Below, one piece after another: positions 3,181 to 61,899 of a stretch of DNA of 64,000 bases. The stretch is taken from the NCBI GenBank assembly GCA_028753945.1, contig JAPNXP010000010.1, positions 3,661,042 to 3,725,041 of the forward strand, in the 5' to 3' direction. Made by a program: the position numbers and the translations under genes. Positions within the stretch are counted from its first letter, which is position 1. Every line of letters starts with the position of its first letter. The stretch comes from Hexactinellida sp. DTS-2022. Lineage: Eukaryota; Porifera; Hexactinellida. The notes under the pieces were generated by a model. That model did no database searches and was not told the origin of the DNA. It saw only the letters and a list, made by a program, of their open reading frames with translations.

Positions 3181-3551
3181 TAATAATGATATAGTCGAAG
3201 ATAATGAAGCTCGTGCAGAACAAGCAAATGATCTACTTGATTCATTAAGGGAGAATGCTACCAATAATACTGGTCGATATGATGATTCGTTTATTGTCGA
3301 TTTCTTTAAATCGAAGCTTAATTCAAAACCTTGTCAAAACCAGGGATTTGTTTTGGATGGATTCCCGAAAACATTTAAACAAGCACTCGAATTATTTGGT
3401 GCCGAAACAAATGTTCAAGCAAATGAATTGCAAAATGAATTTTCAGTAGCCTATAATAGGAAAATTACTCCCTCGTTCGTTATTCATCTTGATTCAAGTG
3501 AGGAATTTTTGAGAGAGAGGCTTATACTTCTTCCCCAGAATATTATTGAAG
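3181..3551 (+). CDS. AK7: adenylate kinase 7-like, internal exon
   Basis: Encodes part of the adenylate kinase domain of an AK7-type protein, the long adenylate kinase of cilia and flagella that interconverts ATP, AMP and ADP. The decisive stretch is 'NQGFVLDGFPKTFKQALELF', which fits the adenylate kinase signature (G[FY]xLDGFP). It is followed by 'FVIHLDSSEEFLRERLILLP', as in the AK7 family. The exon is read from the acceptor TATATAG at 3179-3180 to a donor at 3552 (GAAG|GTATTT), ending one base into a Gly codon. The next exon at 23436 begins GT-ACA-CAT and completes that codon to give 'EGTH', exactly the continuation expected in AK7. The P-loop and the N-terminal half must lie upstream of this window. 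The 3' boundary is firm and the 5' boundary less so. The frame runs on to 3682 into the intron; that part is not coding. Confidence 0.88.
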
Positions 3552-4054
3552 GTATTTTTTGTTCGATATTTTTAACTATTAATCGTTGTCAGGGTTTCAT
3601 ACAGGGGGAGATTGGGGTGCCCTTGCCCCCGCTGCTTCTTCAAGTGCCCCCATGGAAAAACTACTTACACAACGATTTTTAAATTTATGCCTTTCTTTAA
3701 CGAATTACCTATACTTGATTGGCCCCCTTGCATGCAAATCCTGTATGAAACACTGATTGTTGTATTCATTGGTTCTCATAAATATAATTATTCACAAAAC
3801 GATACGTGCCCCCTTTTTCGCTTCAATACAAATTTCATTATCCGAAATAGTAATGCGAATTTATAGAAAAATTTGGATTAATGAGTTTGAGTTTGCCTTA
3901 TGGTATATGCGTAGACCTATAGTTGAGCCTTCGATAATTAGAGTTGATTATTGATATTTTTTATTTAAATTTTTCCAAAATTTACTAGATTTTTATGTCG
4001 GAACTTCGCAATGCAGGACTTGCAACTCATTTTGACCATGGATATCGTCTAAAT

Positions 4055-14997: not shown

Positions 14998-15987
14998 GAC
15001 ATTTTTGTCTGTTATATATTAGTACCTTTAATTGTTTTGGTTTATTCAATTGTGTGTTATACTTCCACAAGTAATCGGACACTTCATTGATTGACTTCAC
15101 AGCTTAATATACAATGACACTCATAATTGGTATGGTTTATGTTATCAATTGCGTGTTATATTTTTATGGTTGCATAAAACGAAGATCTGTATAAATGTAC
15201 ATTTGCTAATGAATATGAAAATTTACGAATAGCCGAATCACTTAGCATAGAAATTGTCAAAACTACGAAAGCGAAAAATAAGGCGTACCTACAAGGTTTT
15301 TTATACACTCTTAATAGAGTTAGCGCGGCAGGTACCCAATACTGGGTATGTGAAAAGCGTGGACTATGTAATGCTCGAATTAATACAACCCAAGGGGTAT
15401 AGTTATTAAACCAACTGAATTTAGTGAAATAGTTTCCAGTCAGTCATTCACATGGACCTGATCCAGGACGTTCCCAAATGTTGAAAGCTTATCAGTCAAT
15501 GAAAGAGTGTGTATCAAACTCGGGAGAGAAACCTCGATTGATTTTATCAAAAGGCATTACCAAACTCGATGAAACTAGTATAATAGCGCTACCTAGACTC
15601 GATTCAGTAAAACGAACGCTACGCAGACATAAGTGTTTAGATGAAGACACTAGTATTAACCAAGCATCAGCTGCAGAGATGATTATACCTGACAAATACC
15701 GGATTACTCTAAAGGGTGAATTATTCTTAGTCTACGATTCTGGAATTGGAGATTCAAACCGTATGTTAATTTTTAGTGCACCTAAAATGCTTTCGTTACT
15801 GCAAGAGTCTCAAAGTTGGTATGCAGATGGCACCTTCAAAGTTGTACCTGAGCAATTCTTCCAACTTTACACTATTCATGCCGAAAAGGTAGTACTATAA
15901 TTCCATGCATATATGCACTATTGACTAACAAAACTCAAGCCACCTATAAGAAACTATTCACAAAAATTCTTGAAATAAATCCTGACT

Positions 15988-18900
15988 CATAGCCTACTAT
16001 ACATAAGGCCTAACATCAAAATGTGGATTTCGGACCAGGGATGGGTTAGCCGATATGAATTGATTTAGAAGGGAATATCATTTATTGGCTATTTCTGATA
16101 CTAAATAGTCTATAATATGCCAAACCAACCATAAAATTGGTCAATTTGCAACCAGGGTTGATTTTGAAGATGAAATTATTAATAACCCATAATGTATATA
16201 ATCACTAATGTGCATATATAAACATTTATCTAAAAATTTGTATTTCCACTAATATCTCGTTATTTCTCACTATTTCTCTTTATTAATCCACCTTTCTGAT
16301 ACTTTCCAATCTGTTTCCGTTAACCTAGCTATTATCATGCCCAACAACTGTTCTGCACCAGGTTGTAAAAGCAATTATGACCCAACCGACAGAATACCTG
16401 TGTTCATGATGCCACAGAAGCCGGATGAACTGAGACATGCTTGGTTACGAGCGCTACACAGAGATGATATAGATGAACTGAAAGTCGTGTACGTGTGCTC
16501 AAAACATTTTAGAGAAGATGAAGTCGAAACAACACACAAAGTTTCCAATGGAGACGGAAGTTATCGAGAAATACCAAGAAACCGTCCTAAGCTGAAAGAT
16601 GGAGCTGTGCCAACTATTATACCAGGATGTCCACGGTACTATTCATCTCATACTGCTACCAAACGCACAAGAATATCTCTAGAGGACAAGGATGACGAAC
16701 TTCTCTATCAAGCAGTTAAACTAAGTCTAGAGTCAGATGTCGAAGAGAATGAAAAGTTCAAGATCCACAGTTGCCATGATTTACAAGCTAAGTTACCCTT
16801 GCTCTCAATTGCTAGTATATGGTCTACGTGGTATCCCGACGAATATACATTAATTTTTCTGCGTCCTCGTATAGATAGTTGTAAGATTGAAGTTAATACG
16901 TACTTATTGGTAAATTTTGACTTGTCCGTCAAAGTTTTTCATAATGGTGTAAATCTTCCAATTTCTATCGTAATGCTATGTGATGTTCGACAAATTGATT
17001 CGCTTCTAATTGAAATTTCTATTCCGCCATCTGCACCCAAAATCTCTGAGAATATTTCCACTAATTTTGATAACACATCTCATATCGCATCTGCGGAAAG
17101 TCATATCCAACAAGTTTTTGATAACATGTACGACGGTAAATCTGATGATGACTTGGTTCCTTGTCCTGAAGTTTCAAGGTTCCAGTTTGTTCTTTGTCAG
17201 CTTCGAAATAGTCTTGTTCCAAAAAAGAGGCGGAGGTATAACGTATTGACGAAGATCTTAGCTCTTAAAACACATCTCATTTCTCCTGCTTCTTATCACT
17301 ATCTACAGAGCATGTCTTGCATTTCTCTTCCTCATTCCAATACCTTACAAAAATCTTTATGTTTCTTACGGAATCCACACATTCCTTTTCTCAGGAACAG
17401 AGGCATGTCATTATTCAAATGGATGAAATTCACGTGAAATCTGATATTTCTTATAAAGGAGGGAGATTGTTTGCTTCAAACCTCGATCCAGATAATCCTA
17501 CCAAGACAATTTTCGCTATCATGGTGTCGAGGCTGTATAAGAAATGGTCTTGTATTGTTCGTCTACTCCCATGTGCTTCTGTAACAGCTGAAAAGTTATT
17601 CGACACTATCAAATCTTGTATTCATGATGTTGAAGATTGTGGTTTGTTCGTTGAAATCATCTCCACTGACAACTATCCCCTTAATGTGAAACTTTTCAAA
17701 TTGTTTTCCCCTAATAGAAAGCTGGAGACTCGAGTACCACACCCTTGTGATATACGCAGAGGTCTTTTCCTTACATTTGACTTCGTACATATTCTGAAGA
17801 CTATTGGCAATAATTGGTTGAATCAACAAACTGATAATAAGCTCTTTTCTTATCCTGATTTTAAACTGTTTTTCTATTGACCGATGCGCTTATCCATTGA
17901 AAATCTGTCATGCTTCTTTCCGTGATATCCGTATACTATATAATTCTGAGAGAGATAGCCTTGCTAAACTTGCCCCTCGTTTGACTTCTAAGGCTTGTTA
18001 TCCATCCAATTTAGAACGTCAAAATGTTAAGTTGGTCCTAAAAATAGTACACGAATCTACAATTGCTGCTCTAGCTATCCAGGATGAGCAGCGTTCTCCT
18101 GCATTCAAATGCAACACCTCTGATTTCGTTGAGATTCTCCTATCTCTCTGGAAAATTTTCAATATCAATATGCCATATAAACATATCAGGTTGAACGACC
18201 CATTGTCTAATCCAATAAGATTTAACGATGAGCGGTTTCTCTTACATACTAGGATTGTCTATTGGCTATAAGCTTGGGAGTCACTGTCTGGGAAAGGTGG
18301 CAAATTAGCAAGCAGACGTTTACCAGCTTCAAACATGCATGCCTCGTGTTGCCACAGATATCAAATTTTCTAACTCAGGACTGTGGGTTTTCATACCTCT
18401 TGACATCTTTCTTGCAGACTGATCCATTGGAACATCATTTTGGACAATATCGTATGATGTCAGGAGCTAATTATCATGTTTCCTATCTTCAGATCTTAGA
18501 ATCAGAACGTCGTCTTAAAGTATCCAATATACTACGTCTATTTCTAATCAGAATGATTCTAGTACTTCTTTGGAAGAGTTCATTCAATCATTTTCACCAT
18601 CGGATAGCGCAGATTCTACCAGTGAAGTTGACCTTGATCCTTTCTTGAGCGCTATATCAGACCGCTCAGCCAATGACTGTAAATTTCAGGTACTTCAGTC
18701 ATTAGCCTTTATTGCTGGCTATTCAGTTCATCAATACTTGAAACGTAGTCAACCATGTCGTATCTGCCGGGATTCTTTGACTATTGAAAGAGATTTACTC
18801 ATCGATGAATCTGATACTATATCTAAGTTCAAACTATTAGAACTCTCTGATCGAGGAGGTTTGAAATATCCATCGGAGGTAGTCCTAGAATCTATTGTCA

Positions 18901-19691
18901 CTGTTTGGAAGATCTTTATTTGCATAGAAAATGATAGCGAACTAATGGAGATATTTGTGAAAGGTCATTGTAGAAAAATTCTTGTTGACTTATCTATGAA
19001 TGTATTATTAGATGTTGACGGTTGTAAATTATGGAGAGAGGTGTTCATCTTGTAGTGTGAATTGTTCCCATGTACTTCAGAAGCTTGTATTCGTAGCTGG
19101 TAATTGTTTCTTAGCGAATAAGGTTAAGAATTACAATTCTATGGTGATTTTCAAGTATACTGAGAAGCGAAAGTTAAAAAAATTCCATTAAAGCATACGT
19201 ATTCATGTGTGTATTCTTAGTTGATTTGATTTTGTGTATTGTTAATTGGAACCACAAATATATTTTATCATTTTACACTAGGTAACAGAAAGATTTAGTG
19301 ATGTTCCCGTCAGAATAATAAATAGTAATGAGAAGTTCGATGCTGTTGCGAGATGTTTGATGAAACTAATGAGTGATGAATGTACCGTGTTGCCTCTTAT
19401 AATGTATTAGTGACCTGTAATTGTAAAATTATGTCTATAACTATTAAAGATATGTTGAATTATATATTAATATTAAAACAATCAGCTGTATTCAATTTTA
19501 GTATGCTTATGGGGTGGAAACCGCATTATCAGTGATATGATGGTTCTAAAGCTTTTACAAAGGTTAAACTGACTAAAAATATCATCTTCTCTAAATTTGC
19601 TATTGCCTGTATTTTATCGTTTATATCGGCTAACACATCCCTGGTCCAAAATCCACATTTTGATGTTAGGCCTTATGTATAGTAGGCTATG
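15988..19691 (+). mobile_element. decayed P element (3.7 kb) inside a MULE gene
   Basis: Terminal inverted repeats of 69 bp (15988-16056 and 19623-19691, starting CATAGCCTACTATACATAAG) differ at two positions. Flanks CCTGACT (15981-15987) and CCTGAAT (19692-19698) form a 7-bp target duplication with one change. Removing the element and one flank restores the MULE reading frame ('EINPELNPF'), which fixes the ends independently. Same family-level start (CATAGC) as the element at 5324-9745, but clearly a different lineage. Confidence 0.93.
16337..19191 (+). pseudogene. P-element transposase, THAP type, multiply frameshifted
   Basis: Starts 'MPNNCSAPGCKSNYDPTD', a complete THAP finger in one exon: two Cys, then 'VYVCSKHF' with Cys and His, ending 'GAVPTIIPGC'. 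Unlike the copy at 5792-9163 there is no intron at this site. The frame is open to about 17400, then shifts. The core continues 'IIQMDEIHVKSDISYKGG', 'TFDFVHILKTIGNNWL' (17317-17880), 'LAKLAPRLTSKACYPSNLER' (17897-18271), 'DPLEHHFGQYRMMSGANY' (18262-18600), and a C-terminal part with 'LAFIAGYSVHQYLKRSQPC' (18570-19055). It ends near 19191 as '..EKRKLKKFH'. At least four frameshifts and a roughly 40-residue deletion near 17880 make it dead. It is paralogous over its whole length to the other copy. Confidence 0.9.
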
Positions 19692-19991
19692 CCTGAATTA
19701 AACCCTTTTCTAATTATGGTGGATTTTGAGAAGGCCTCCATTAATGCATTTGAAGAGAAATTTCTTAGCGTAGTGTCAGGCTGTTTTTTCCACCTGTCAC
19801 AAAATATTTATCACAAGTTACAATCAGCTGGGCTTACTAACCAATATATTGAAGATCCAATTTTCGCTCTCCAAATAAAAATGTTACCCAGTTTAGCATT
19901 TGTTCCCGAAGACAAAGTTATTCAATCTTTTACAGCACTGATGGTAGAACCTACACTCCCCTACTTAAAGTATTCATAAACCCAAAAATTC

Positions 19992-27043: not shown

Positions 27044-29720
27044 CACAGTGGTCTGGGGCACGGAATAGTTAAAAATTTCGAGGTGTAGAAATTGCTTAAT
27101 TATGAAATAAATAGATTTATAATTGTGTAATTGCAACTGTTAAAGATGAAATAATATATTTATCAAAATTCCTTAGATTGCATTTTCAAAATAATAAGAA
27201 TTTCAATTTGCTAGGATTTCGTTTGTATCTGCAATATACATTACTCTTCTTATACATCCTAAACTTAACACATTCAATCTATTCAAATTGTCAAATTGAT
27301 CCAAATATGTTATTAACTTCTCAAATTTTTCTTTGAAGCTGAGAGACAAAAAATTATCAATATCCGCTAAAACACATATAGCATTCTATACCTTAGAAAT
27401 TTCCTGTGGCCATTCTATGATGGAACATATACAACATATTAAAATATTTAGATGCGCTTCGATGCGCAATATAGAATTTATATTCAAATTCCATTCTCTA
27501 TTTTTCGTTGCTAGGCAACTCTCAATACATTTGCTATGTTGCATTCTGTTACAGACCACTATGTATTAATGCTATGCCACTATCTACCCTTTATATAATA
27601 TGTAAATGGTAACACATATTTAGCTAACATTTATTCTTTCAGTATTCTAACTCTGTAACATATAATTAAACAATTTACCAATGGCTAAAGTGTCTTTTCC
27701 ACGGAACCGTCGTGATTTTGCGTACATTTTGAAGAAGAATGAATTCAACATTCCAGAAGCAGTCAATGAAGTAATAACTCTTTTAAATATTGAAGAAGAA
27801 TTGACAGATTCTGTTACTTCATATATGAGAATAATTCACTCTAATTTAAAGAAAACTAAGAAATCCTTGGAACTATTAAATATTGAGTGGAGGACCCCGA
27901 AATTCCTTGGGAATCAAAACCTAGCAAGCTATCCTTTAAATCTTCAGGGCCAGCCGAAATTTCGAAAACGTCTCAGACAAGAAAGTCTCTATTGATTTTT
28001 TCTTTGCATTCACAAAGATCCAGACTGTCCTTCATTAGGGAGCAAATAAGGGAGGTTGCTGCCATTGAAGATTCTAGTCCTGTAGTAATTGCAGCTTTAT
28101 CATTGCAACTTTAGCCAATGAAGAAGACAACCGTCAGGTTTCCAATGTTGCTAAAGAAATAGTGGCTAATGGTGGATTCAGTAACTTAAAAGATAAAGTT
28201 GTTTCACTAGATAAAGCTTTATTCGTGCTCGATTTAGTTGGAGTGGGTAGAAGAATATACACACAACTTCGCCAAACATTGATCCCAGAAAATATTATCT
28301 TTCCTTCATACAACAAGATAGCAGATCTAAGAAATATTTTGATCTCGCGGCCTTCTATACACTTGTATCTAGACCCAATCCAGCCAATTGGTGTATACAC
28401 TTCGTATTTTCTTCAAGTTCAACAAACCTTGGAGAGAATATTATCTACTTTAAATCTTCCAGCTAGCGAAGAATTCCCGTTAACATTTAGAATTGCTGAT
28501 GGCCTAATGGCTGTGGTTGCCATAATATCTATAACCAGCACACACCAAGACAAGAACAAATAATTTCATTTTATTTTGCTTTAAGCCAATATCCATCCAT
28601 ACAAAATCGGACACGGTTGTTTGGAGAAACAATTCTCCATTCTCACAGAGACTCATTTTTCTTTGTGCTGCCTGCGAAGGAATGTAAAGATAATATCCGG
28701 AAATTTATGAAAGATAAGATCAATCCTGAAACAGCAAAGCTCGGAACTGGTGTATCTCTCGATAGAGGTCTAGTAGTTGACGATATTATTCGATCCATGT
28801 TCGACGGAAAGATGGCGACAATCCTATCTGGTTCAGGAGGTGCTAGTTGTCAAATGTGCACTGCCACACATAAAGATTTGAAAGATAAAGTCTTGGTACT
28901 TGATGGATTCCCCATCAACAGAACCATTACTGACGCTAGACAGTTTTTCTCAGATATTGAAGGTACAGATTCCTTCTTTGCACTTCCAAGTAGTGAGCGT
29001 TTCGGCTTGACAGACACACCTATTTCTACCATATACATACATTCAGCATCTCATCTACACTCGTATACTTGCATCTTTCGGTGGTTTAATCTGTTGGTTT
29101 CTGTTGGTTTTAGCTGGTCTCCAACTTCCCCCGCGATCAAACAGTCGATGAAATTCCTTCAAACACTAATTCAAGAAAATACTGGTTTGAAAGTTGACCA
29201 ACCAGACTCAAGTGGTGGAACAACCTCTACAGTAAACGTAGCTCTAAGAGCATTCTCTAACGAAACAAGTTTTTTAGAATGTGTACTATCGGCTATTGCA
29301 AATCCCCATTGACCAGCATTAGCAAAGATACATACTCAAGCGTATAATTCCAGTAGAAAAGTGAAGACAGTGGAGTTGGGAAAAGTGTGCAAAGACACTT
29401 ATCTATTGATTTTAGATTCATTTCTCTGGGCGAGTATCACACCAACTTTAGACAAATTATTAGCCCACTCTGAGGAATTGATTCGTGAATCTAACTCTGG
29501 ATTTGGATTAAAGAAATTTTGAAAGAAATTTTATTGAAACTTTGGCTCGAAAAGATAGTTTCGAAACTAATATTATGGATATATTTGTTAGATTAGCCTC
29601 CCAAAGTGATCCAGTTTCAGTGAGCTATCGGAGATGTTTATCTGTAAACGATGTGGTCAGTCTGGACATTCATAAGATCAAAATGTTGTAGGGCAGATAG
29701 TATTGCACAAACTTCTGAAA
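27044..29720 (+). mobile_element. RAG1/Transib-like element, copy 1 (right end missing)
   Basis: Left end CACAGTG at 27044-27050, an 11-bp spacer, then GGAATAG at 27062, the same layout as the left ends at 36265, 50241 and 60237. The transposase remnant starts 637 bp inside (713 bp in the copy at 36265), and the leaders share text around 'ATTCCATTCTC'. No right-hand CACTGTG is visible before the next element at 29877, so the right end and target duplication are lost. Confidence 0.75.
27681..29693 (+). pseudogene. RAG1/Transib-like DDE transposase, frameshifted
   Basis: Decayed transposase of the RAG1/Transib clade, the cut-and-paste enzymes ancestral to V(D)J recombinase. The N-terminal part (27681-27995, then other frames) is helical and charged; 28162-28506 gives 'NLKDKVVSLDKALFVLDLVG' and 'PLTFRIADGL', the segment before the first catalytic Asp (intact as 'ADGLDGSGSH' in the copy at 36978). 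A shift at 28507 leads into a frame open to 29309 with 'FFFVLPAKECKDNIRKFM', 'FDGKMATILSGSGGASCQMC' and 'TATHKDLK'. This resembles the RAG1 core around its CxxC zinc site ('DEKL..GS..CTLCDAT'). After a TGA at 29310 the same frame continues 'SITPTLDKLLAHSEELIRES', like the RAG1 'HKTLAH' zinc-ligand helix, then 'RNFIETLARKDSF'. The acidic motif expected before that last block is deleted. A CxxCGxxGH knuckle-like tail sits near 29650. At least three frameshifts and two stops: inactive. Confidence 0.75.
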
Positions 29721-30143: not shown

Positions 30144-32046
30144 GTCCCCACTTGAGCGAAACTCGTTTGAGCGAAGTCGTAGATGAGCGACGAACTCTTT
30201 TAGCGAACCCCCAAAACAGCGAATTAAGAAATGCAATGTATAAGGAATATAAATTGATTTAATGGGTTAGTGGAAGATCAATATATTAATAAAGGATATA
30301 CTTGAAGAAATATGAAATAATTAAAACAAAAGATGAGTACCGGTAATTATTATTTTTATAGAAGTGTGTTAAGTTCACTAAAATATGTCTGTTAAAGTGA
30401 AATATTTGTGGGTTGAGACAAATTGTGTGCTATTCCAAGTAGAAATTCTTCCACGTTCTTATTCCCTTGTGATAATGTCAATTCTTTCATTGATTTGCTT
30501 ATACTTAGTGCTATTTGAGTGTCGTTTGATATTGCCAGCTTCAATTTGGAATAATATAGTTTCTGTTGCTCCTTGCTCTCTGATCAATTTTGAGATGAAT
30601 TCGTAAATATTAGCATGCGTTTTCCCAATGGCGCGATTTAGACGCAAGTGCCAACCTTCAAGATTGTTATTTGTCCTCCGTTGAATTCCATGCATATTCC
30701 AAAGATTGTGATCAACAGTGTTAATCCAGTAGTTCTCAAAGTATTCAAAAAGACTTTCCACCTCAAGAGGACAATGCTGTTTTAAGTCGTCAAAGGTTTG
30801 ATGGATTAGATCTACCTGAATAAATGCAATCGCAAGAAGTTTTCGAATATACATTCTATGACCTTCGTGATGTATATAGATAGGTGATAAACCTAATAGT
30901 TGTACACGCCTATATATTGCTTGACAAAAATGAAAGTAACACCCGCGAATACGAGTGGTGGGGAACTCTGTCTTGATACTTGATATTAAACCACTTTCAA
31001 AATCACAAGTAAATAAAGTAGGCATCAAAAGTACATCTAGGCTGTCAGCTTTATCCTTAAGGGACCGAAAGACTTGAGAATATATTGCTCGTGTTTTAGA
31101 GGATAGTAGACAATAAACCAATGGAATGAGTTTGTCACCCTCAAAGCCATGAATAGTGAAAATCTGGGTATATATTTTAGGTACACTCTTAAATGTTCCA
31201 TCAGCACACCAATGAGACTTGGTAGAAAGCCTACGAATATTTTCTTCTGTACTAAAAATTACTATATCATTATTGGCCGAATAAAACATGTGAAAATTAC
31301 AACCTGCAATTGTTTTTCTTAGTTGACTTCGTATATTCAGTTCAGCTCGCGACATTGGAAGTGTAGGGAAATGGCTAAGCCTTTCACGATATAATGAAGA
31401 GTCAATTTGAATGAACAAAGGAAATCGTGATGCAGCAGTATGATTTTGTGAAAGCAGGGCAGAAGATTCATTATATAAGACAGTGATAGGAGTTATTGTG
31501 TTCGCACTTTTATCTTAAGATCACAAATAACTTCTTCAACCAATCTCCTGTCTGGATCCGGATAGCAATGGTCTTTATGAGTAGTAAAAAGCTCGATGTC
31601 TGTATTACCTTGGTCGTTATTTGTATATAAACTTCCATTGCAATCCCGGGTACGACATCGCCATCGCTTTTTCGTATTACTCGCATTAAATTTGTCAAAT
31701 CTATATGAATAGCCTTCAAAACTTAAGGCTGGATAATTTTTCGTGGTTGTATAACGTGATGCCATAAATTTGGTGTAAGAAAATGTACTCTATGATTGAT
31801 TAATTAACTTGTATCCTCTATTTATATATGCAAATAGTAGTGCATTTGCTTAGTTTACACACTTCCATTGTTGAACATTATCACGTTAATAACTTAATAT
31901 TCCTTATACATTGCATTTCTTAATTCGCTGTTTTGGGGGTTCGCTAAAAGAGTTCGTCGCTCATCTACGACTTCGCTCAAATGGGTTCGCTCAAACGGGT
32001 TCGCTCAAACGGGTTTCGCTCAAATCCATTTCGCTCAAGTGGGGAC
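30144..32046 (-). mobile_element. MULE with FLYWCH transposase (1.9 kb)
   Basis: Ends GTCCCCACTTGAGCGAAA (30144) and its inverse to 32046. The inverted repeats (30144-30250 and 31897-32046) are essentially identical, except that the right one has about three extra GTTTGAGCGAACCC units, an unequal minisatellite expansion. Both flanks carry GTCAATTGTTCGA, but that is the local array unit, so the 9-10 bp duplication expected of a MULE cannot be separated from it. The near-identical ends suggest a recent insertion. Confidence 0.85.
30459..31765 (-). pseudogene. FLYWCH-MULE transposase, single frameshift
   Basis: The minus-strand gene starts at 31765 ('MASRYTTTKNYPALSFEGYS') with a FLYWCH finger: 'YSYRFDKFNASNTKKRWRCR' and 'RDCNGSLYT', then 'THKDHCYPD' supplying the His ligands (residues about 15-75). 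A one-base shift near 31505 separates it from the MULE core at 31418-30459. Core motifs: 'SHWCADGTFKSVPKIYTQIF' (first Asp), 'PTLFTCDFESGLISSIKTEF' (second Asp), 'GCYFHFCQAIYRRVQ' (CxxH), and 'RTNNNLEGWHLRLNRAIGK' with the final Glu (NNxxEGWH motif). About 410 codons in all, normal for this group. With only one visible lesion it is close to intact; an intron at the shift is an alternative but I see no good splice pair. Confidence 0.85.
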
Positions 32047-34335: not shown

Positions 34336-34566
34336 ATGCGCCCCCTGGTAATTCCCATCAGCTATATTTTATACCTAACCCCTTATTCGATCAATATTCA
34401 TTGTCAAAAAAACAGGACAAATTGAATATATAGTAAATGTGTGCCATCATAACTTATTCCTTTTGTATAAATATAACGTGCCCGACCTAGGCCCGCACCA
34501 TAGAAAATCCTGGTTACGCTACTGCTTTTTAATACCTCTCTATATGGTGTGTTTACCAACTACGTG

Positions 34567-35290
34567 ATATTTTCAATATTTTATCGAGCTCTTCCAGACA
34601 AAACTATGCATGCTCGAGCAAATGACCGTACTGGTGGGAAACGCTCAAAAGATCGAGAAACTTGTTTGCTATGTGTAAATGCATTAGGAGAATTTGAGCG
34701 ACCATTTATTATTGGCCACTCTTTAAATCCAAGATGCTTCAAGAATATTCCAACATACCATTTACCTGTGACCTATCGTGCAAACAAGAAAGCTTGGATG
34801 ACTAGTCAGTTATATCACGAGTGGATAAACGTATTTGACACAAGAGTGCGTAACAGGATCGGCATATCTTATTGTTCTTGGACAATGCTCCCTGCCATCC
34901 TCCAGTTGATTTCCTAACCGACAAAATAAATTGGTATTTTTAGCCGCAAATACTACGTCCGTTCTACAGCCACTTGATCAGGGTATTATCCAGAACCTGA
35001 AGCTACACTATCGGAAACTGCTTCTCCGACGTGTGCTTAGTCACATTAACGACAACAATTCCGCAGAAACAATTGCTCGAAGCAATAACAACCTGGATGC
35101 TTGTCGATGAATATCAACTGCTCTCAAAGAAGTACGTCTCATTACTGTACAAATGTTTTTCAAGATGTGGGCTAAGATTCGACAAGAATAACGCAGTACA
35201 TAATGATGAGGAAGATAAAGACATTGAAACAGTTGGTGAATTGCTCAAAATAGCCACGTACCGAATATCTTCGATAATATCTTTATAGAT
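34567..35290 (+). pseudogene. Tigger/pogo-type DDE transposase remnant
   Basis: Middle and C-terminal part of a pogo/Tigger transposase (CENP-B/jerky-like family). 'FYRALPDKTMHARANDRTGG' and 'FIIGHSLNPRCFKN' with 'YRANKKAWMTSQLYHEWINV' (34567-34857) belong to the DDE_1 endonuclease fold. A shift leads to 'FLDNAPCHPPVDFLTDK' (about 34870-34925, second Asp), another to 'AANTTSVLQPLDQGIIQNLK' and 'LHYRKLLLRRVL' (about 34945-35040, third Asp). A last block 'KKYVSLLYKCFSRCGLRFDK' follows (about 35129-35190). The CENP-B DNA-binding half is absent, apparently cut off at the boundary near 34526. At least two frameshifts and several stops; inactive. Confidence 0.82.
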
Positions 35291-36977
35291 CCCCAGGTAT
35301 ATGCTTGAATTGATGAAGAAATTCCAATTACGGATAATTTAGAAGGAGATTGGGAATCACGCATTCTGGAGAATTTGACACGAAAAGAAAATGATGAGAA
35401 TTTAGCTCTGATGAAGAAGAAACAATCCAACCGCCAGAAATTGAGAAAGCTTCATTGGAGATGCTTTGTCTTGAGTCCCAAATATCCAATATTTCTTAAA
35501 AGAGCAATCTATGACAGGGGAATATAATGTAATCGCTTATCTTGTAGACAAGATAAATCAAAAGGCTATTCAAGTATTCACAGGAAATTGTAAACAATCT
35601 AAGTTGGATTCCATTATGAAATAATTAAATTAAGCAATTACGTGATTGAATAAAAATATTTCTCGAGTGACTAATCAGAATTTTCAGGAATGTTTCATCA
35701 TTCTGAAAATTCCGACTGATCACCCACGTAGTGTGAAAAGTAAACACTAAATCAAAAAATCCCTCTGACGCTCCCGTGATATTACTTAGTACTAACTATA
35801 TTGACATTAACATCGCATTGATAATAACCCTAATTTGAGAAATTGTTTTGACTATAGAAAAATTTAAATTAATGTTATGGTAAATCATTTTTCATTTAGT
35901 TCCATATTCACATACCTTGCTGTAACTCGGAAAGTATATAAGCTAGAGAGTCAAACTTTGTCATAAACAATAGATAATTGGAAGGGGTATTATGGGACAA
36001 ACTAACGTGCCCAAATACACTTTAGATTTCCAGGGGATACTTAACCTTAAGGCTAAGTTCCTTCTGGAATTGAAAAAGCTAATTATCTTCCTTAGTTTGT
36101 ATTCTATTTACTCTCTTTATTAGCTATCATTTATAACAAAGTTTGACTCTCTAGCTCATATACATTCCGAGTTACAGTCAGGTATGTGAATATGGAATTA
36201 AATGACATATCATTTAGTTTAACATTAATTGAAATTTTACTATAAACAAAGTTACTTGAGAAATCACAGTGGCTTAACACCAGGAAATAGAGAAAAATGT
36301 GATGGTCATATTTTGACTTGTTTTTGATTGCTAATTATTCTAAACTATTTAAATTTCACACAGTTTAAATTTGAAGTCAATTGAGTACCTATAAGTCTCA
36401 TAAATCGAAAACCAAACATTTCTAAAATTCAATTACATTTTGTGGTTACGAATATTTCTTAAATAAGCACTATGTAAAATAGCTCATCAAAGTTTAGCCA
36501 AGCATGTTATTCTTATGAAAACTTGTACAGTAGATAATTCAAGCTTTCTGAATCAGAATATTTGATTATCTCGACTGAAAATTGAATAATTTTTCTGAAA
36601 TAACATTTTTGAACTTAACTGGTCTAAAGAACAGTTTATTTTTCAAAAAAATATTCCGAGTGTTCTGGAAAAAAATAGTCAGAGAAAGACAAGCCAATAT
36701 TAATACATGTTCATGACCAATGTCATCACTAGTTAAATACAAAAAATCTGGCCCCGAAACAGTGCGCAAGACAATAATTATAGCCACATTCCATTCTCGT
36801 ATTTCGCTTGCTATGTAAATACCATATACTAAGTATTGCGGTCATGTAATTAAATACACCATACATTTATAACCAATCAACCACTGATGTGGCTCGTCTT
36901 GTATTTATATAGTTCTAACTACATTTTAACACAAATACTTAATCATTCAATCAAGCATTTATTTGTTGTTCCACTCA

Positions 36978-37960
36978 TGGCTAAATTCTAACTGTTCTCC
37001 AAAACCCGGCTTGATTTGGCAAAAATCTTGAAGAGCAATGATAATAATATCGACGAAACAATTTCAGATCTAGGACATCTTGATTTAGAATTTTAGATGA
37101 AGGTAAGAAAGATTGTTTGCATGCTACTCTCCGCAGAATACGTGATAATGTCAGAAAAGCTAAAAAAACTTTAAATAGTTTGGATGGTGATTGGTCGAAT
37201 TCAGAAATTTCTCTGGAGCCTCAACCGACAAAATTATAAATTTTTCTTCCTGATATTACTAATACAGTTGAAAAATCTCTACACCATAGGAAGAATATAG
37301 ATGAGCTTTCCCTGAAACAACAACGATCACGCCTCTCAAGTGTACTAGAAGCAATAAAGTTACTTTCAAAAATTGAAAACACCTCAAAAGTAAAGATAGC
37401 TGCCCGCATTGCAAATATTATCTAACGAAGAAAACAACAAAAAGGTTTCTCAAATATCCAAATCAATTGTCTCTGACAATTTCAGCGGCCGCTTTGGGAA
37501 TCTTGTAAAGAAAGAGCTTGAAGTCGACAAGGCATTATTCCTTATAGATTTATTGGAAATCGGGAAGAGGAAATATACACAATTGCGCGCCAGCATTTGT
37601 TAACTAGCGATATTCATTTTCCAGCATATCAAAGAGTAGCTGAGCATAGAAATGCGATAATAATACGTCCTGTAATTCAACTCTACCCAAATCCTACATC
37701 TATCGGCGTAAGTGTACCATACGCTCAGTATGTCCAACATACCTTTTCAAGGATATTACAAACCATTGCTTCTTCTCCCAAATAAGATTTTCCATTGACT
37801 TTCAGAATCGCAGACGGCTTAGATGGTTCTGGGAGCCATACTGTATATAACCAACTGAGCACAAACACAGAAAAAATGTTTCATACTTTATTGTTTCAAA
37901 CCTATTCAAATCACGTCTTGCTCCGGAAAATTATTGTGGAAAGACAACTCCCCTAATTCT
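36978..37960 (+). pseudogene. RAG1/Transib-like transposase, N-terminal half only
   Basis: Collinear with the N-terminal half of the gene at 27681. Traces: 'LDLAKILKSNDNNIDETIS' (about 37010), 'RRIRDNVRKAKKTLNSLDGD' (about 37130), 'LSLKQQRSRLSSVLEAIKLL' (about 37305), 'FGNLVKKELEVDKALFLIDL' (37409-37603), 'HFPAYQRVAEHRNAIIIRP' and 'PTSIGVSVPYAQYVQHTF' (37597-37785). Then 'LTFRIADGLDGSGSHTVYNQ' just after 37795, the best preserved first catalytic Asp motif in the family here. It continues 'LLWKDNSPNSPFYQRL' and stops near 37950. Everything from the CxxC core to the C-terminus is deleted, so this copy could only be moved by an enzyme made elsewhere. Many stops and frameshifts. Confidence 0.75.
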
Positions 37961-38209
37961 CCATTTTACCAAAGACTTTAGATTTCTCAAGTATCATATA
38001 GCACAAATAGATTACATATATGTAATTGTGATAACGCTAAAGATTTTGTAAAAAGTAAAAATTTATGTAAATAATAAAATAACACAAATCTTAGGATGAC
38101 GTCATGACTGGAAAATTACAACCCATACGAAAATTTAGAAATTGTCAAAAGTTTCTAATCACCGAAAACCTATATGTAAATAATACACAGTATTAAGCTA
38201 ACTCCAAAG

Positions 38210-38394
38210 CAGGCTTTCATACTGGCAAAATTTCCCGCGCGCCTAGATTAAGATTGAGCTCGCTCACACGCGCCTAAAATGCTCAATTTGTATTACGTCT
38301 ATGGGAGCATCTCTCGATTTTCGCGCGCCTAGAAAAGTTTTCTTTTGAAATTACGCGCCTGGAGGCGCGTCGAATACGCCGGGATGAAACCCTG
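38210..38394. mobile_element. hAT-type MITE, 185 bp (copy 2)
   Basis: Begins CAGGCTTTCATACTGG, ends GGGATGAAACCCTG; perfect 8-bp duplication CTCCAAAG at 38202-38209 and 38395-38402. Interior GCGCGCCTAGATTAAG and 'GTATTACGTCTATGGGAG' shared with 13025-13204. The flanks here define the true ends of the family. Confidence 0.92.
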
Positions 38395-39214
38395 CTCCAA
38401 AGAATTAGCAGATTTAAGAATTCTAAAAATTTTGTGAAATCATCATGACGTCATAATAGACAAAGTATGAGCTGTATCTAAATTTCGATATGTTCAATCA
38501 GTTTCTAAACATCGATAACCCATATGCAAATAATACATTATATTATGCTAAAGTGCACACATATATCTATTCCCTACCAACTGCGATTTTTAGCCACTGT
38601 GGAAATTTGGGTAGTTATCAATGCGATGTTAATGCCTATATAGTTAGTACTAACTAGTAGCACGGGGGCGACAGAGAGCTTTAAGCAATTACGTGATTGA
38701 TTAAAAATATTTCTTGAATGACTAATCGGAATTTTCTATAAATATCCCGAATTCTCAAAAATTCTGATTAGCCATCGAGAAATATTTTTAATCAATCACG
38801 TAATTGCTTAAAGCTCTCTGTTGAAATTTGTTGCACAAACTAAGGTCAATTTGAAAATTAATTTGCTGTGAAAAGGTGTAGAATTAAATTCTCTATCGAA
38901 TGCATAGAAATTGAATATTCGCGCACTGTTTATTGGTCTTTTCTAACATTAAACATGTGTAAAAATGTATCCAACAAAATATAATCATAAATCGTGACCC
39001 AGGTGCACATCTGTAACCCAGGACGATGAGACACATTTCCAAAAAATTTGGGTTCTTAGTTAATTAAACTCTGTTCTGTGGATGAGCCACGGTAGAATAA
39101 TAAAAATCCAAAATTGCATCCTGTGCGACGCATTTACCTTTGGAGGCTGCAATTTTGGATTTTTTTCGAAATGTCATGATCGCCTCAAGGGGTTTACACT
39201 CATTTATCAAGTTG

Positions 39215-42034: not shown

Positions 42035-43820
42035 TCAATGAGAAGGTTGAACTTGTTTCAACATAGTAAGTTTTTTTATATCAGGTTCAGTTTTAGAAAT
42101 TGCACATCGCATGTCGTCTTCTACAGACAATCGGTTTCTGTGTTTTGTTTTGATCAATACAAGTGTAGAAAAACCAGATTCACATAAGTATGTAGAAGGG
42201 AAAGGGAGTAGGATCCTGATGGCCATTTTAGACACATTGGGGTATAACTTGACCATCCTGCACCAGAAACGAATGAGAGATTTCAGCGAACATATCTTTA
42301 GCATTGCTATCATTAATTAATTCAATGAACTCTTCCTGTTCAGCGGGTGGGATGGAATCAACATTTACTTTGAAAGGATTTCTGGTAAACTTGAAGTTTT
42401 TATCACTCAAATCCTCAAAATAGGAAATAAATTCTTGTTTTAGTACTCTCAAGTGCTCCAGAATGGCTCCTTTTGTGTCTGAATCTAGAGTATTTTTCTT
42501 TTCTAAAATGTGCGCATCCAAAGTCTGAAATTGATTATATATTCCTTTCCTAATTTGATTAGTCCACAACTCCAATTTCATTAAGAATGCTTTGACCTTA
42601 TCCACAAAATCAATCACTGTGCTTTATTTTCCTTGCATCGATAAGTTTTATAAATTCAGTCTAGAAAAGATGTCGACGAGGTAGGCAAGTTCAAAGCTCC
42701 GATCTTCAATATTAAATTGAAATAGCATGTGTGGATTTTTCTGTTGGTGAACAAACTCTTGAATATCTGCGCGTAATTCAAATACTCTTTTAAAGACATT
42801 GCCTCTGGAAAGCCAACGTACCTCTGTGTGAAATAGAAGGTTTTCTGAACTGGCATCAAATTCTTTGCATAACTCTCGGAAGAGACGCGTATTCAATGCA
42901 CTTCGATTGATGTAGTTGACCAATTTAATAACTCCAGACATTACATCAGAAAGTAGAGGAGGGAGGGTTTTTGAAGCAAGAGCATGTCTATGTATCATAC
43001 AATGTAATGACATGACATCTGAAACTTGTGCCTTAACTCGGGTTTGGAATCCTGAACGACATCCCAACATTGCTGGAGCTCCATCAGTACAGATTGCACA
43101 AAGATTTTTCCAGTCCAAACCGTTATCAATAAAAAATTCATTCACCTTTTCAAATATATCAATTCCTTTTGTTGTTGTTTGTAGAGGAAGGCAAAACAGA
43201 AAATCTTCTTTGAAATCACCATCATAAATATATCTGACAAAGCATATTAACTGAGCACATGAAGAAACATCAGTAGACTCATCCAGCTGAATACTGAATA
43301 TTCCCAATGGCGCTGCTTTCACCTCGGCTATAACCTGTAACTTGACATCTTCTGACATATCTATGATACGACGATGAACAGTGTTATTTGAAAGTGATAA
43401 CGGCGCTAATTTATTTGCGTTGTCTTCACCTAGCATTAATCTCACAGTTTCTTTGATGCAAGGGAGAATCAAACTTTCCCCAATTGTATGAGGTTTCTTC
43501 TGCTGTGCAATTTTCAAAGAAATAACATACGAAGTTTCAATAGCTGAAATTGTTTGTTGCTTATATGTTCCAGTCGTATCTAACCTGACTTGTTTTACGC
43601 CATTCTCTTTCCTTTGAAAATACAGAACGTCAATATCTTTAAGCTCGGGGTGACATCCATTAAGATGCCTTTTAAGGAGGCTTGGTTTCATACTATCAGC
43701 AGAAAGTGTCTTAAAACAGATAACACACTGAGGGCGTTCAAAACCACCTACATGAATCTGTGTGAATCCAAATTTGATGTATTCATTGGAATAATTTCTC
43801 TTCATTCCTCCTGAAGCCAT
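42035..43820 (-). pseudogene. hAT transposase, ZBED5-like, with BED zinc finger
   Basis: Starts at 43820 ('MASGGMKRNYSNEYIKFGFT'). BED-type finger: 'RPQCVICFKTLSADSMKPS' then 'LLKRHLNGCHPE'. Catalytic core: 'APLGIFSIQLDESTDVSSCA' (first Asp), 'LCAICTDGAPAMLGCRSGF' (second Asp), 'HCMIHRHALASKTLP' (CxxH), 'FHTEVRWLSRG' (RW motif). Two in-frame TAA codons occur near 42648 and 42627, after 'VDIFSRLNL'; the same frame resumes with 'VIDFVDKVKAFLMKLELW'. A frameshift near 42290 leads to the C-terminal dimerisation part 'STYLCESGFSTL' and 'NRLSVEDDMRCAISKTEPDI', with the final Glu. About 590 codons, the usual size of the ZBED5/FAM200-like group. Three lesions, so inactive but fairly young. Confidence 0.9.
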
Positions 43821-44090
43821 TTGCAACAAGGTTAAAAACTTTTTAATTAAGTAGAAATGTAAATAGAGATTATTAAAATGCAATTATAAATTGTATTATG
43901 ATGTACGCGTACTCGGTTAAGGCTAATCAATATCAGCAAAGAATTATGGTCTCAGCTTATCCATTGTTTTACTGTAGAACACTTATACATAGTATATAAT
44001 GAAACAACCATTGAAATTTCCATTTTACAAATACTTTTTTTGAAAATGGATTTTTTAAATTTCGTAATGTTAAATTCCTATACCCTGGAG

Positions 44091-50061: not shown

Positions 50062-50240
50062 AAGGCAGTGAGATTAGAACTGGGCCACTATACTATAGTA
50101 TAGTCGGCACAGTAATAATAATATAAATAAAGGCAGTAAGATTAGAACTGGGCCACTATACTATAGTATAGTCGGCACAGTAATAAATAAAATACAGGCA
50201 GTGATTTCAATACTGGGCCACTATACTAAAGTATAGTCGG
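50062..50240. repeat. ~62-bp tandem repeat, three units
   Basis: Units contain GGCAGTRAGATTAGAACTGG and the palindrome CTATACTATAGTATAG, ending GTCGGCACAGTAATAA. The last unit is cut by the RAG-like element at 50241 and resumes at 51405 (GTCGGCACAGTAATAAAGGC), then by the hAT element at 51433. Confidence 0.85.
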
Positions 50241-51404
50241 CACAGTGGGCAAACCAGGGGAAATAGAGTTATTTGTCAACACCCTTGGATTACGAACTTT
50301 TATATTTTTTCAGATTCACCATTGTTTCAAACCTAGAAATACTAATTTTCGAAGTCATATACTAGCGGGGTAACGAATAATATGAATTGGAATGACTGAT
50401 CTAAATATATTTTCTATCAATAATTCTGTTGTGATATTACGATCGTAATCAAACTTGTACGATTTCTACCCATATGATGATTCATACTATCAATATGTAA
50501 TTTATATCAAGACTCAAGATTGTAACTTATTGATGTCATTGCTATAAATACAATTTCATTGTGGAATTGAAGCTAAATTTACAATATCTTATGGAAGTAT
50601 TTATGGATTTCGGACGGAAATTTATATGCCATTTTGGTTCAAAAACATTAGGTGCTCGGTCGTGGTCACATATTCTAATGCTTTTAAATGTTACATAGAC
50701 ATATTAGCAAAATATTTATATTAGTTTTGCATCCGCCCAAACCCGCCCCGGAATGATTTTTTCAATTTACCATTGTCCCCTCAGAAAATTCATATAATGT
50801 AAATTGAATTTCTCCACTAATTATCCAATTAATTTAGTTTTTTTCTTCCATTAACTGATAGTGATAATGAATAACAAAGCAGTTTATGATATATTAAAGT
50901 CAAATCTCTCAATCAGCATACCAAGTTAGAAATTCATCCATGCTTTTGAATTTCAGTAAAATAATTTTATGAGATCCGGAAGAAATTTAGGCGCTAGCAA
51001 TGTTCCATATTATACAACTATGCTACCTAAAACTATCTAGGGTTTCCTAAGAGTAATTGCACCTGCGATAGTTACACTCAGCATCCATCTACCCTTCTAT
51101 AAAATCAATGTGATATAGAATACCTAGGGATAAGACTAACATTTCAATTATTTTACCCAAGTTTAAGATGTATTATCAATAATCATGGGCGATTAATATA
51201 TGATTGTTACAGAACCAAAAATTTAATAAATCATGAATTTACCATTGATCGTCCAAAACTACTGTTAGGAGACTATATATATCATTTTTAATATTGCCAT
51301 TCGGTTTGCAGCTACCGATAACCTATATGTCAATAATACTTCATTAGAGTCTATCTAGCATAGTTTTCCTACTTCCCCTTACACCCTTGAAAATGCCCAC
51401 TGTG
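50241..51404 (+). mobile_element. RAG/Transib-like non-autonomous element (1.16 kb)
   Basis: Starts CACAGTGGGCAAACCAGGGG and ends inverted TGAAAATGCCCACTGTG; perfect 5-bp, GC-rich duplication GTCGG (50236-50240, 51405-51409). Left end: heptamer, 11-bp spacer, GGAAATAG (50259-50266). Right end read inward: heptamer, 21-bp spacer, GGAAGTAG. Its right subterminal 'GATAACCTATATGTCAATAA' block matches those of 36265-38601 and 60237-61305. No open frame of note, so it depends on a transposase made elsewhere. Confidence 0.88.
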
Positions 51405-51432
51405 GTCGGCACAGTAATAAAGGCATTGAGAT

Positions 51433-60169: not shown

Positions 60170-61899
60170 GTAGGCCATGGTCCAGATTCCATTTGGAGAT
60201 GTATTCCAGATTGCCTCCATATGAAGGCATCGTGAGCACAGTGTTTTATTGACAGGGAGTTGGACAATTTTTTACCAATTCTGATCTCTTCAAAAACGTT
60301 TTTATCGTGTTCAGCATAATCGAGAACCTAGGTAACTGTTTTTACAGTTAAAAATTCCAAGTAGAATTAGAAATATGATGCAGTGTCTATAGTTTCAATG
60401 GCTAAATATAATTGAAGAAATTTTGTGGCTAACTATTATGCATCATTTCATGCTCGTGTATCTCATTAGGTTTCGATCACAATCAGCTAATATTTTCACA
60501 GTGTTTAATTATAGTTTAAATCATCCTAAAACTGTTGAATACTCTTCATATAATTATTTGTCCTTTAGTATAATTATCATTGCAAAGTATGATTAGCTGG
60601 AAGTGTCCGAACTGCTAAATTCCATGTATTGGTATTGCGTAAACTGTCGTGTCGTCTCGTGTCGTTTTACTAGCCCTATTTTTATATAAAGTTTAACTAT
60701 ATAGCTTTGGATCTTAACCACTTTCCAGTCCCGCGCAACCGCGCGCAAACCAAAATCTACGTGTCTATCTATATACGGGGGCTTTGAAGATTTATATACG
60801 AAGATTTTACTTATTTTTTTCAAAATTTCATCAATTAGTAAACTAAATGAATAATTTAGAAGCGAGGGATTACCTTTCAACCAAGGAAACTATACGGGTT
60901 GCTGTAAATGTAATAGAAAATGCAAGGGTGATCAAATGTCAAAATTGGATCAAGAAAAACTGGTCGAATCATTGATGTTAAAAAAGCTGGTTATTTAACT
61001 GGCCTATGCTCTCGAATTACATTATCAACTTAAATAGGTCTACACCATGCATTTATTTAGAGATGCATATAAATGAATTAGCTCTAGTTTATTTGAAAAT
61101 ACTAATTTAGCAAATATTTGTGGAATTATGGGAATAAAAAAATATACTATGACGTCATAACTTAAAAATTTGAAGCCGTACTAATTTTCTGAGTCCATAA
61201 ATGGATTCACAGGTATAGATAACCCATGGGTATATAATACATTTGATAGGTCTATCTGCTCTGGAAATATCTACTTCCTGTGAATGGTCCAAATAAACCA
61301 CTGTGGTGAGTGCTACCAGGCCACTTGGCGACGATGTCGATGAATTTCAAATTACTATCGCATATGCCTGAATATTTATAGAATAGAAATTCTTCCTATT
61401 CACATTTACATCCTCATTCTGTGGTGGTGCCAAAATAGGTACATGCGTACCATCAATACACCCAATAACCTTAGGAAAGCCGTATTTTTCGTAAAGCCTT
61501 TGTTGGTGTATCAATTGGCCAGTTTGATTTGGAAATAGACGAATTCTCTAGCACAGGAGCAAAGTGCATAAGATACAGTCCGAATACATTGGGAGACTGA
61601 AGGCTGATATATCCCATGTGATGACGCTATCACTTTTTGGAATGATCCAGTAGCTAAGAATTGAAGTGCGACAGCTAATTGAGTGGAGTAAGCAATTGGA
61701 TGTGGCCGAATAGTTGATCTATGTAAGAAGATTGAAATTTTCTCTTCAAGATCGACAAAAATATGCTTTGTAACTCTGTAACCTGACAAAATTCAACATC
61801 GTTATATACATCCAACGGATTCAACCTATCCCGAAATACTCTCTGGCGTAATAGACTTTGGGAAGAATAAACCTCGAGGAGAAAAACAGAAAGTGCCAT
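60170..61899 (-). pseudogene. HARBI1/PIF-Harbinger-like transposase, split by a RAG-like element
   Basis: The minus-strand gene starts near 61899. Pieces: 'FRDRLNPLDVYNDVEF' (61899-61780), then after a shift 'STQLAVALQFLATGSFQKVI' and 'HGIYQPSVSQCIRTVS' (61730-61560), the helical lead-in of HARBI1-like proteins. 'KVIGCIDGTHVPILAPP' (about 61470-61420) carries the first catalytic Asp. After another shift 'LKFIDIVAKWPGSTH' (about 61350-61308) carries the second. The 1069-bp element 60237-61305 interrupts here; beyond it the frame continues 'DAFIWRQSGIHLQMESG' (60231-60180), so 'GSTHDAFIW' is restored when the element and one GTGAG are removed. The final Glu region is not recognisable. Several frameshifts: inactive. 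Confidence 0.85.
60237..61305 (+). mobile_element. RAG/Transib-like non-autonomous element (1.07 kb)
   Basis: Left CACAGTGTTTTATTGACAGG, right inverse AAATAAACCACTGTG; perfect 5-bp duplication GTGAG (60232-60236, 61306-61310), validated by the restored HARBI1 frame. Left motif GGGAGTTG starts at element position 19 (11-bp spacer). Right motif GGAAGTAG lies 20 bp behind the heptamer. A TGACGTCAT (about 61150) and 'GATAACCCATGGGTATATAA' block near the right end match 36265-38601. The minus frame 60593-60880 has no recognised similarity. Confidence 0.88.

Follow-up and report, generated by a model that had tools for sequence, protein, structure and literature searches.

Short ends paired with long ends: a Transib-like transposon family of a hexactinellid sponge and its likeness to the 12/23 rule

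Where did the 12/23 rule and the hairpin joining of V(D)J recombination come from, before there were antibodies? The question, still open, is raised by a stretch of 64,000 nucleotides of the sponge Hexactinellida sp. DTS-2022 (assembly GCA_028753945.1, contig JAPNXP010000010.1, positions 3,661,042 to 3,725,041, forward strand), the whole of which we call the window. It holds transposons whose ends open on the heptamer CACAGTG and carry, beyond a spacer, an octamer close to GGAARTAG, the spacer being short at one end and long at the other. A first, sequence-only reading had seen there an element family whose two ends differ by about one turn of DNA, as in 12/23 pairing, linked to a transposase with RAG1-core-like motifs. 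Judged from sequence comparison, the best account of this family would be a Transib transposon of the Subgroup I type, pairing one short with one long end.

The genome searched amounts to 112,398,167 bases in 18 contigs (C1, C2 and so on in what follows, where L numbers denote loci). All end searches required the CACAGTG heptamer, and spacers were read from about the first 100 matches listed. The pattern CACAGTG-N11-GGAAATAG has 217 matches, CACAGTGG-N5..30-GGAAGTAG has 224, and CACAGTG-N0..30-GGAAATAG has 537, the reversed control giving none in each case. Among the 100 matches listed of these 537, the spacer measured 10 base pairs (bp) in 4, 11 in 41, 15 in one, 19 in 2, 20 in 25, 21 in 26 and 22 in one. 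Hence, within a search range of 0 to 30 bp, 99 of the 100 listed ends have a spacer of 10-11 or of 19-22 bp. The spacing first proposed, 11/21, keeps its short term and has to be widened in its long one, which is mostly 20 or 21 and rarely 19 or 22: the family is best described as 11/20-21. The ends listed on C2-C8 lie mostly at 1-4.5 Mb, well inside contigs about 5-6 Mb long, possibly a pericentromeric-like pattern.

To see how these ends associate, we assembled 251 distinct ends from the matches listed in four end searches. One of the lists contributed only five additional convergent pairs (10 places), and its remaining places, which by inspection form no further convergent pair and fall inside no counted pair, were left out. 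When a pair is defined as neighbouring ends facing each other at most 4.5 kb apart, there are 56 adjacent convergent pairs, of which 55 are short/long and one has a disturbed reading of 27 bp, with no short/short and no long/long pair. Shuffling the labels gave a mean of 27.7 short/long pairs and a maximum of 41 in 20,000 trials, against the 55 observed. The difference between the two spacers is most often 9 bp (37 pairs), then 10 bp (17 pairs), with single cases of 8 bp and, in the disturbed pair, 16 bp; a difference of about one helical turn, with pairing of the 12/23 kind, is thus borne out, 54 of the 56 pairs differing by 9-10 bp. The lack of any fixed spacing difference genome-wide, which would have spoken against the proposal, is not what the pairs display. 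An earlier count on C1-C6, which added a short-only list, had yielded 23 pairs (19 short/long, 3 short/short and 1 disturbed); because it mixed in that list, the pairing figure is taken from the 56-pair set. One of its short/short pairs, at C1:6027513, spans a long end later found at C1:6029998. A long-type end at L068 (C1:3456103-3456144), with extra bases after CACAGTG that produce a 27-bp reading, is possibly a rearranged or doubled terminus.

In the window, whose content in guanine and cytosine (GC) is 34.5%, CACAGTG occurs 12 times against 3.37 expected, and none of 100 shuffles reaches 12. The seven ends named at the outset all lie where they had been placed. The left ends at 27044, 36265, 50241 and 60237 each have CACAGTG and an 11-bp spacer, followed by GGAATAG at 27044, GGAAATAG at 36265 and 50241, and GGGAGTTG, a 6/8 match to GGAARTAG, at 60237. 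The right ends at 38601, 51404 and 61305 have spacers of 20, 21 and 20 bp, then GGGAATAG, GGAAGTAG and GGAAGTAG, respectively. The three complete copies are therefore 11/20, 11/21 and 11/20, and each has the perfect 5-bp duplication attributed to it (GAAAT, GTCGG, GTGAG). The features are as follows.

27044..27068, plus strand: degenerate short-spacer (left) end, 11-bp spacer, GGAATAG; no right end of this copy recognised
27681..29672, plus strand: frame-shifted RAG1/Transib-like transposase remnant of the 27044 copy (tblastn with the L032 protein, E 3.9e-176, four pieces in three frames)
36260..36264, no strand: target-site duplication GAAAT, left copy
36265..36290, plus strand: short-spacer end, heptamer 36265-36271, 11-bp spacer, GGAAATAG at 36283-36290
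37001..37975, plus strand: decayed N-terminal part of a transposase in the 36265-38601 copy (tblastn E 1.1e-46 with L039, 7.5e-39 with L034)
38567..38601, minus strand: long-spacer end, heptamer 38595-38601, 20-bp spacer, GGGAATAG
38602..38606, no strand: target-site duplication GAAAT, right copy
50236..50240, no strand: target-site duplication GTCGG, left copy
50241..50266, plus strand: short-spacer end of a 1164-bp non-autonomous copy, 11-bp spacer, GGAAATAG
51369..51404, minus strand: long-spacer end of the 1164-bp non-autonomous copy, 21-bp spacer, GGAAGTAG
51405..51409, no strand: target-site duplication GTCGG, right copy
60232..60236, no strand: target-site duplication GTGAG, left copy
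60237..60262, plus strand: short-spacer end of a 1069-bp non-autonomous copy, 11-bp spacer, degenerate GGGAGTTG
61271..61305, minus strand: long-spacer end of the 1069-bp non-autonomous copy, 20-bp spacer, GGAAGTAG
61306..61310, no strand: target-site duplication GTGAG, right copy

The 50241-51404 copy is 96% identical to L012 and the 60237-61305 copy 98% identical to L081. In the 36265-38601 copy, the transposase matches found by tblastn stop just past the region of the first catalytic aspartate. The short remnant pieces of the window matched no Pfam family above cut-off and HzTransib only at E 1, ranked below unrelated channel proteins; it was full-length relatives that decided the superfamily.

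Such relatives abound. The transposase fragment of the 27044 copy has at least 151 genomic matches at E 1e-5 or better, a lower bound as 150 of 464 candidates were scored, and at least 13 of the matches listed lie in stop-free open frames of 700 codons or more. Twelve transposases were aligned (five incomplete at the N-terminus, L057 also without its C-terminal part); ten of the eleven others are 45-70% identical to L053, and one is 98% identical. The Pfam RAG1 family (PF12940) is found above its curated cut-off in four of five proteins, the fifth scoring 20.1 against 25. The profile of the twelve, compared with the PDB, retrieves HzTransib at E 1.6e-40, the amphioxus BbRAG1L at 3.1e-16 and vertebrate RAG1 from 4.5e-13; of 18 matches at E<=1, 17 are Transib, RAG1L or RAG1 and the eighteenth is the isolated nonamer-binding domain of RAG1. 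The predicted catalytic residues D270, D374 and E627 (L053 numbering) align with D126, D225 and E436 of HzTransib, as numbered in an excerpt of PMC6941560, and the same alignment predicts the zinc ligands C389, C392, H599 and H604. Taken alone (nine sequences), the N-terminal segment has as its best match the isolated nonamer-binding domain 3gna (E 3.2e-4), and the 16 top matches of 19 are RAG1. An AlphaFold model (mean predicted local distance difference test, pLDDT, 71.3; predicted template modelling score, pTM, 0.58) gave 51 Foldseek matches at E<=0.001. HzTransib was the best (5.8e-19), with RAG1 bound to the 12/23 recombination signal sequences (RSSs) at 1.7e-18; among the best 50, ranks 1-49 are Transib, RAG1 or RAG1L. 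The linkage of the ends to a RAG1-core-like transposase is thereby upheld by Pfam, profile and fold alike, all three scoring best to Transib/RAG1 and none to an unrelated superfamily, and by homology the enzyme belongs to the Transib/RAG1 superfamily. Between diverged transposases, proportions of nonsynonymous differences (pN) of 0.18-0.43 against synonymous ones (pS) of 0.76-0.84 indicate purifying selection; one close pair (pS 0.011, pN 0.007) has too few changes for judging selection. A C-x2-C-x4-H-x5-C motif starts at residue 674 in L053 and recurs in some other transposases, with zf-CCHC below cut-off; it may correspond to the zinc knuckle of the Subgroup I type 1 C-terminal tail. Bacterial and viral contigs scanned with two short peptide patterns of the alignment yielded no confirmed relative, and scans of this kind neither support nor contradict the bacterial Transibs of PMC9435367.

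For the insertion sites we examined 57 complete copies, taken from first-listed places plus spacer- or subfamily-restricted lists and thus not a random sample; 28 came from sequence obtained before a hypothesis on palindromes was written, and 29 needed sequence obtained after. Of the 51 rows in one list, 13 were manually excluded before counting (L006 twice, L007, L018, L027, L059, L079 twice, L081, L086, L090 and WIN twice). All lack a 5-bp match; ten offer a second partner for an end that had been paired before, and the 51-row list supplied no alternative counted partner for L018, L059 and WIN:123. An exact 5-bp duplication flanks 38 of the 57 copies (20 before and 18 after the hypothesis), L005 being retained among them despite a doubtful partner end. 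Nine more (6 before, 3 after) have the duplication but, at one end, one or two additional bases as well. These bases (GC, CA, CG, CG, C, G, GG, C and TT) lie between duplication and heptamer, and all nine sets admit a reading in which they are the reverse complement of the flank beside them, where chance would match one base in four for single bases and one in 16 for two. L063/L064 admits an equally short, non-matching reading, and L141/L142 one with an extra base on each side. With shuffled flanks any match at offsets 0-2 occurs in 2.0% of cases, or 1.1 expected of 57.

The remaining ten copies include some with longer tracts. At L091, CGAAG is followed by CTAGCTAGCT, whose 10 bases all fit repeated palindromic addition (chance about 0.0003 at 34% GC); at L107, 6 of 7 bases do so (about 0.006), and L139 has 6 extra bases of the same kind beside an imperfect duplication. 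A (TGCA)4 tract at L068/L069 is suggestive at most, because the other end is disturbed and TTTTA and TGTTA differ by one base. Altogether, nine scars are clear, L091, L107 and L139 have tracts that are probable or possible, and one case is suggestive. Elsewhere among the ten, L099/L100 (11/11) has an extra base on either side, the duplications of L065 and C2:2147183 differ by one base (we read as chance a 12-base offset match that a script reported at the latter), one base is missing at C2:2729135, and L137 and C1:8767244 have no duplication. Among the 12 clear or probable scars, the short end carries 8 and the long end 4; in most of these cases a single end is affected, which suggests that one end alone was cut or that the other was rejoined precisely. 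Around 37 exact duplications, with orientation partly normalised, there is a weak palindromic target preference, C-A-N-T-G, with C in 17, A in 20, T in 19 and G in 14 at positions 1, 2, 4 and 5.

P nucleotide and open-and-shut joint are terms from V(D)J joining, and nicking a closed hairpin away from its centre yields palindromes free of a loop. The scars would fit the off-centre opening of a hairpin on the flank, followed by rejoining to the element; hairpins on flanking DNA are described for both HzTransib and RAG in an excerpt of PMC6941560. On balance we favour the idea that ends are cut in the germline and that the adjacent flank, once sealed as a hairpin, is nicked away from its centre and joined back onto the end it came from; the P nucleotides so produced would sit between the duplication and the heptamer, at times after several rounds (CGAAG/CT-AGCT-AGCT at C2:2127753, the slash marking the junction). 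These insertions would then be a readable genomic record of RAG-style hairpin chemistry. Such palindromic scars are possibly new: among the papers listed by searches on such scars and on asymmetric Transib ends, no title or abstract opening describes any at unexcised Transib ends. Two of these papers, PMC5520896 and PMC7555691, contain 'open-and-shut'. The extra bases might have another origin, namely fold-back synthesis during gap filling, slippage on repeats, or bases carried from the donor site. In three of the nine scars the addition is CG or GC, and palindrome and dinucleotide repeat cannot be told apart. Next to the heptamer, CTAGCT is common to L091 and L139, members of a single subfamily, and L137 has the similar GCTAGC, which could be inherited in part; nor is the additional A beside one end of L099/L100 accounted for by a palindrome. 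GG/CC, TT/AA and CA/TG, however, are no repeats, donor bases carried along would mismatch the new flank, and all three one-end scars of 1-2 bases among the copies obtained after the hypothesis was written match it, which leaves this origin the less probable one, though a serious competitor.

We can now propose how the system would work, an explanation that we regard as highly probable taken as a whole: a lone Transib transposase, ends with two sites, short/long pairing, a probable flank hairpin and a 5-bp duplication. A single DDE transposase of about 710-725 amino acids, acting without RAG2, would contact each end twice, its catalytic core presumably reading the heptamer and about the first four bases that follow, and its RAG1-like nonamer-binding domain GGAARTAG. 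The two sites would stand 11 bp apart at one end and 20-21 bp apart at the end located 3' of the gene. With separations so unequal, a productive pair would have to combine the two types of end, in the manner of the 12/23 rule, and two equal ends would not work together. Cleavage would probably leave a hairpin on the flanking DNA, insertion would copy 5 bp of the target, and the extra bases may be P nucleotides from one end cut, opened and resealed in place. The bases next to the heptamer co-vary: in 36 complete copies (including L005) the two ends of one element agree at spacer positions 2-4 with frequencies of 0.86, 0.94 and 0.97, against 0.26, 0.31 and 0.30 across elements with different short-end spacers. 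Restricting the set to a single copy of each distinct 5-mer (n=12) changes these values to 0.83, 0.92 and 1.0 versus 0.24, 0.36 and 0.29. RAG is described in passages of PMC8289069 as contacting the first spacer positions.

Several observations weigh against this explanation. Outside the 56-pair set there are two short/short candidates, C4:1909199-1910401 (L099/L100, 11/11) and C4:2344603-2348301 (11/10, ends 3699 bp apart), so that equal ends may not be wholly barred. The former has flanks GCTTG/C and A/GCTTG, with one extra base per side, of which the C is palindromic and the A is not. In one of the 56 pairs the long end is disturbed; 10 of the 57 complete copies belong neither to the exact nor to the 1-2-base class; the AlphaFold model is weak over residues 71-160 (block means 40-64), a stretch that takes in the supposed DNA-binding domain; GGAARTAG does not resemble the A-rich nonamer of the RSS; and the RAG2 Pfam family PF03089 has no match in the genome, a weak test as control genomes are equally empty. 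Finally, the fixed spacing could also reflect common descent of the copies from one ancestor. The end letters of C4:1909199-1910401 come from two subfamilies, possibly a hybrid or a rule-breaking insertion.

Common descent deserves to be taken further: an ancestor with unequal ends might have passed them on without any rule of pairing. Non-autonomous families do descend from few parents, as witnessed by four copies, that of the window at 60237-61305 among them, at 0.976-0.987 identity, and the two short/short candidates agree with such a view. The subfamilies, however, are widely diverged, ten transposases being at 45-70% identity to L053 and spacer letters differing, and yet 99 of 100 listed spacers and 55 of 56 pairs conform, which suggests selection on spacing. 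We consider inheritance without a rule unlikely.

Pairing of short with long ends by a lone transposase also has to be set against the possibility of a second gene. Of 30 transposase loci, 18 have a recognisable end, always with a 20/21-bp spacer and 3' of the gene, and 12 have none; the short end mostly falls outside, as the loci extend just 1.5 kb per side. An element measures about 3.0 kb and its open frame 2.1 kb, which leaves little room for another gene. It is hard to believe, then, in a RAG-like (RAGL) transposon, built on RAG1 and RAG2, whose RAG2-like gene was lost or missed. From C392 to H599 there are 207 residues, as in the RAG1 chain 9lqv and against 165 in HzTransib, and the zinc-binding domain contains the RAG2-binding region of RAG1 (PMC9435367), but this region is also present in Subgroup I Transibs (PMC9435367), HzTransib has the best profile score, and the empty PF03089 search, a weak negative, points the same way. 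With no linked RAG2-like gene found in elements of this size, what is seen is a Transib-type element with one gene rather than a RAG1-RAG2 transposon.

That the family belongs to an unrelated superfamily such as CMC/Chapaev, hAT or P, and has a CACAGTG tip that only looks like that of a Transib, is next to impossible: a terminal CAC is common to several superfamilies and P-element transposase appears as a distant fold match (rank 50, 5.2e-05), but CMC/Chapaev elements have a CMC-type transposase and shorter duplications, and the leading sequence and fold matches to Transib/RAG1, with 5-bp duplications, refute all three identities.

Other mobile elements share the window. P-element-like transposons lie at 5792-8551 (minus strand, matches below cut-off only) and 15478-19979 (plus strand, THAP domain PF05485, 1.7e-15). 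Transposase pieces of MULE (1.8e-13) and FLYWCH (1.2e-07) type at 30459-31765 (minus) are flanked by 100-bp inverted repeats at 30160-30259 and 31888-31987. A DDE_1 transposase fragment at 34549-34917 (plus, 5e-15) is presumably of the pogo/Tigger type, and transposase-like open reading frames at 42035-43883 (minus), one of which, when tested, gave a weak DUF4371 match below cut-off, seem to us to resemble hAT/ZBED-type transposases. An adenylate-kinase-like gene fragment is found at 3137-3682 (plus, PF00406, 1.2e-06).

The genome supplies hundreds of natural ends in many subfamilies, an 11/20-21 rule and at least 13 long stop-free frames, apparently without RAG2. It permits a direct test of whether a lone RAG1-like transposase enforces the pairing of unequal ends through its nonamer-binding domain, and the co-varying spacer positions and palindromic scars yield specific predictions. 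If the proposal is true, and the short/long rule strict, nature would have provided, without RAG2, a counterpart of recombination that is 12/23-restricted and forms hairpins, and in it single-end cutting would be common.

How does the family stand among known systems? With vertebrate RAG1/2 and its 12/23 RSSs it shares CACAGTG, spacers of two classes that differ by about a helical turn, the pairing of one class with the other and homology of the nonamer-binding domain. RAG also gives palindromic added bases, a likeness to the scars described here. In contrast, vertebrate RAG uses 12/23 spacers, an A-rich nonamer and RAG2, and assembles genes, whereas here spacers of 11 and 20-21 bp and GGAARTAG, which set these ends apart from V(D)J signals, belong to a mobile element. 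AanRAGL of Aureococcus anophagefferens and ProtoRAG of amphioxus have 5-bp duplications and asymmetric bipartite ends as well. They differ in carrying a RAG2-like gene (none found here in a weak search) and in their motifs and spacer lengths, 4/13 bp (difference 9) in AanRAGL (PMC9435367) and 27/31 in ProtoRAG (an excerpt of PMC8289069). HzTransib (PDB 6pqn and related), which would fall in Subgroup II, is the best profile and fold match and its DDE and zinc residues align, but its ends are described as symmetric in passages of PMC8289069 and its zinc-binding span is 42 residues shorter.

Of the features of a Transib the family has a Transib/RAG1-homologous core with its predicted DDE triad, 5-bp duplications and termini with a CAC heptamer. 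Those of Subgroup I are found in the asymmetric terminal repeats (55 of 56 pairs short/long), in the equivalent of the nonamer-binding domain (3gna, 3.2e-4) and, by length alone (207 residues), in the RAG1-like alpha11-alpha12 stretch of the zinc-binding domain. Asymmetric ends occur in all Subgroup I Transibs and some others, and equivalents of the nonamer domain in both subgroups (PMC9435367); asymmetry alone is not new, being already known in Transibs (PMC9435367; an excerpt of PMC8355894). With the Subgroup I Transibs of Tao et al. (2022, PMC9435367) the sponge family shares a RAG1-like transposase, asymmetric bipartite ends, a zinc-binding segment of RAG1 length, a nonamer-binding-domain equivalent and perhaps, judging by motif, a zinc-knuckle-like C-terminal tail; the main text of that article mentions neither the GGAARTAG octamer nor a spacing of 11/20-21, and neither a high copy number nor palindromic scars. 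Kapitonov and Jurka (2005) noted the heptamer with spacers of about 12/23 in Transib5 and some Anopheles families, as related in passages of PMC8355894. By that partial account 12/23-like Transibs make up a few families, and autonomous Transibs typically exist in one or a few copies per genome (an excerpt of PMC4411706), in contrast to the hundreds of ends and many subfamilies present in this genome.

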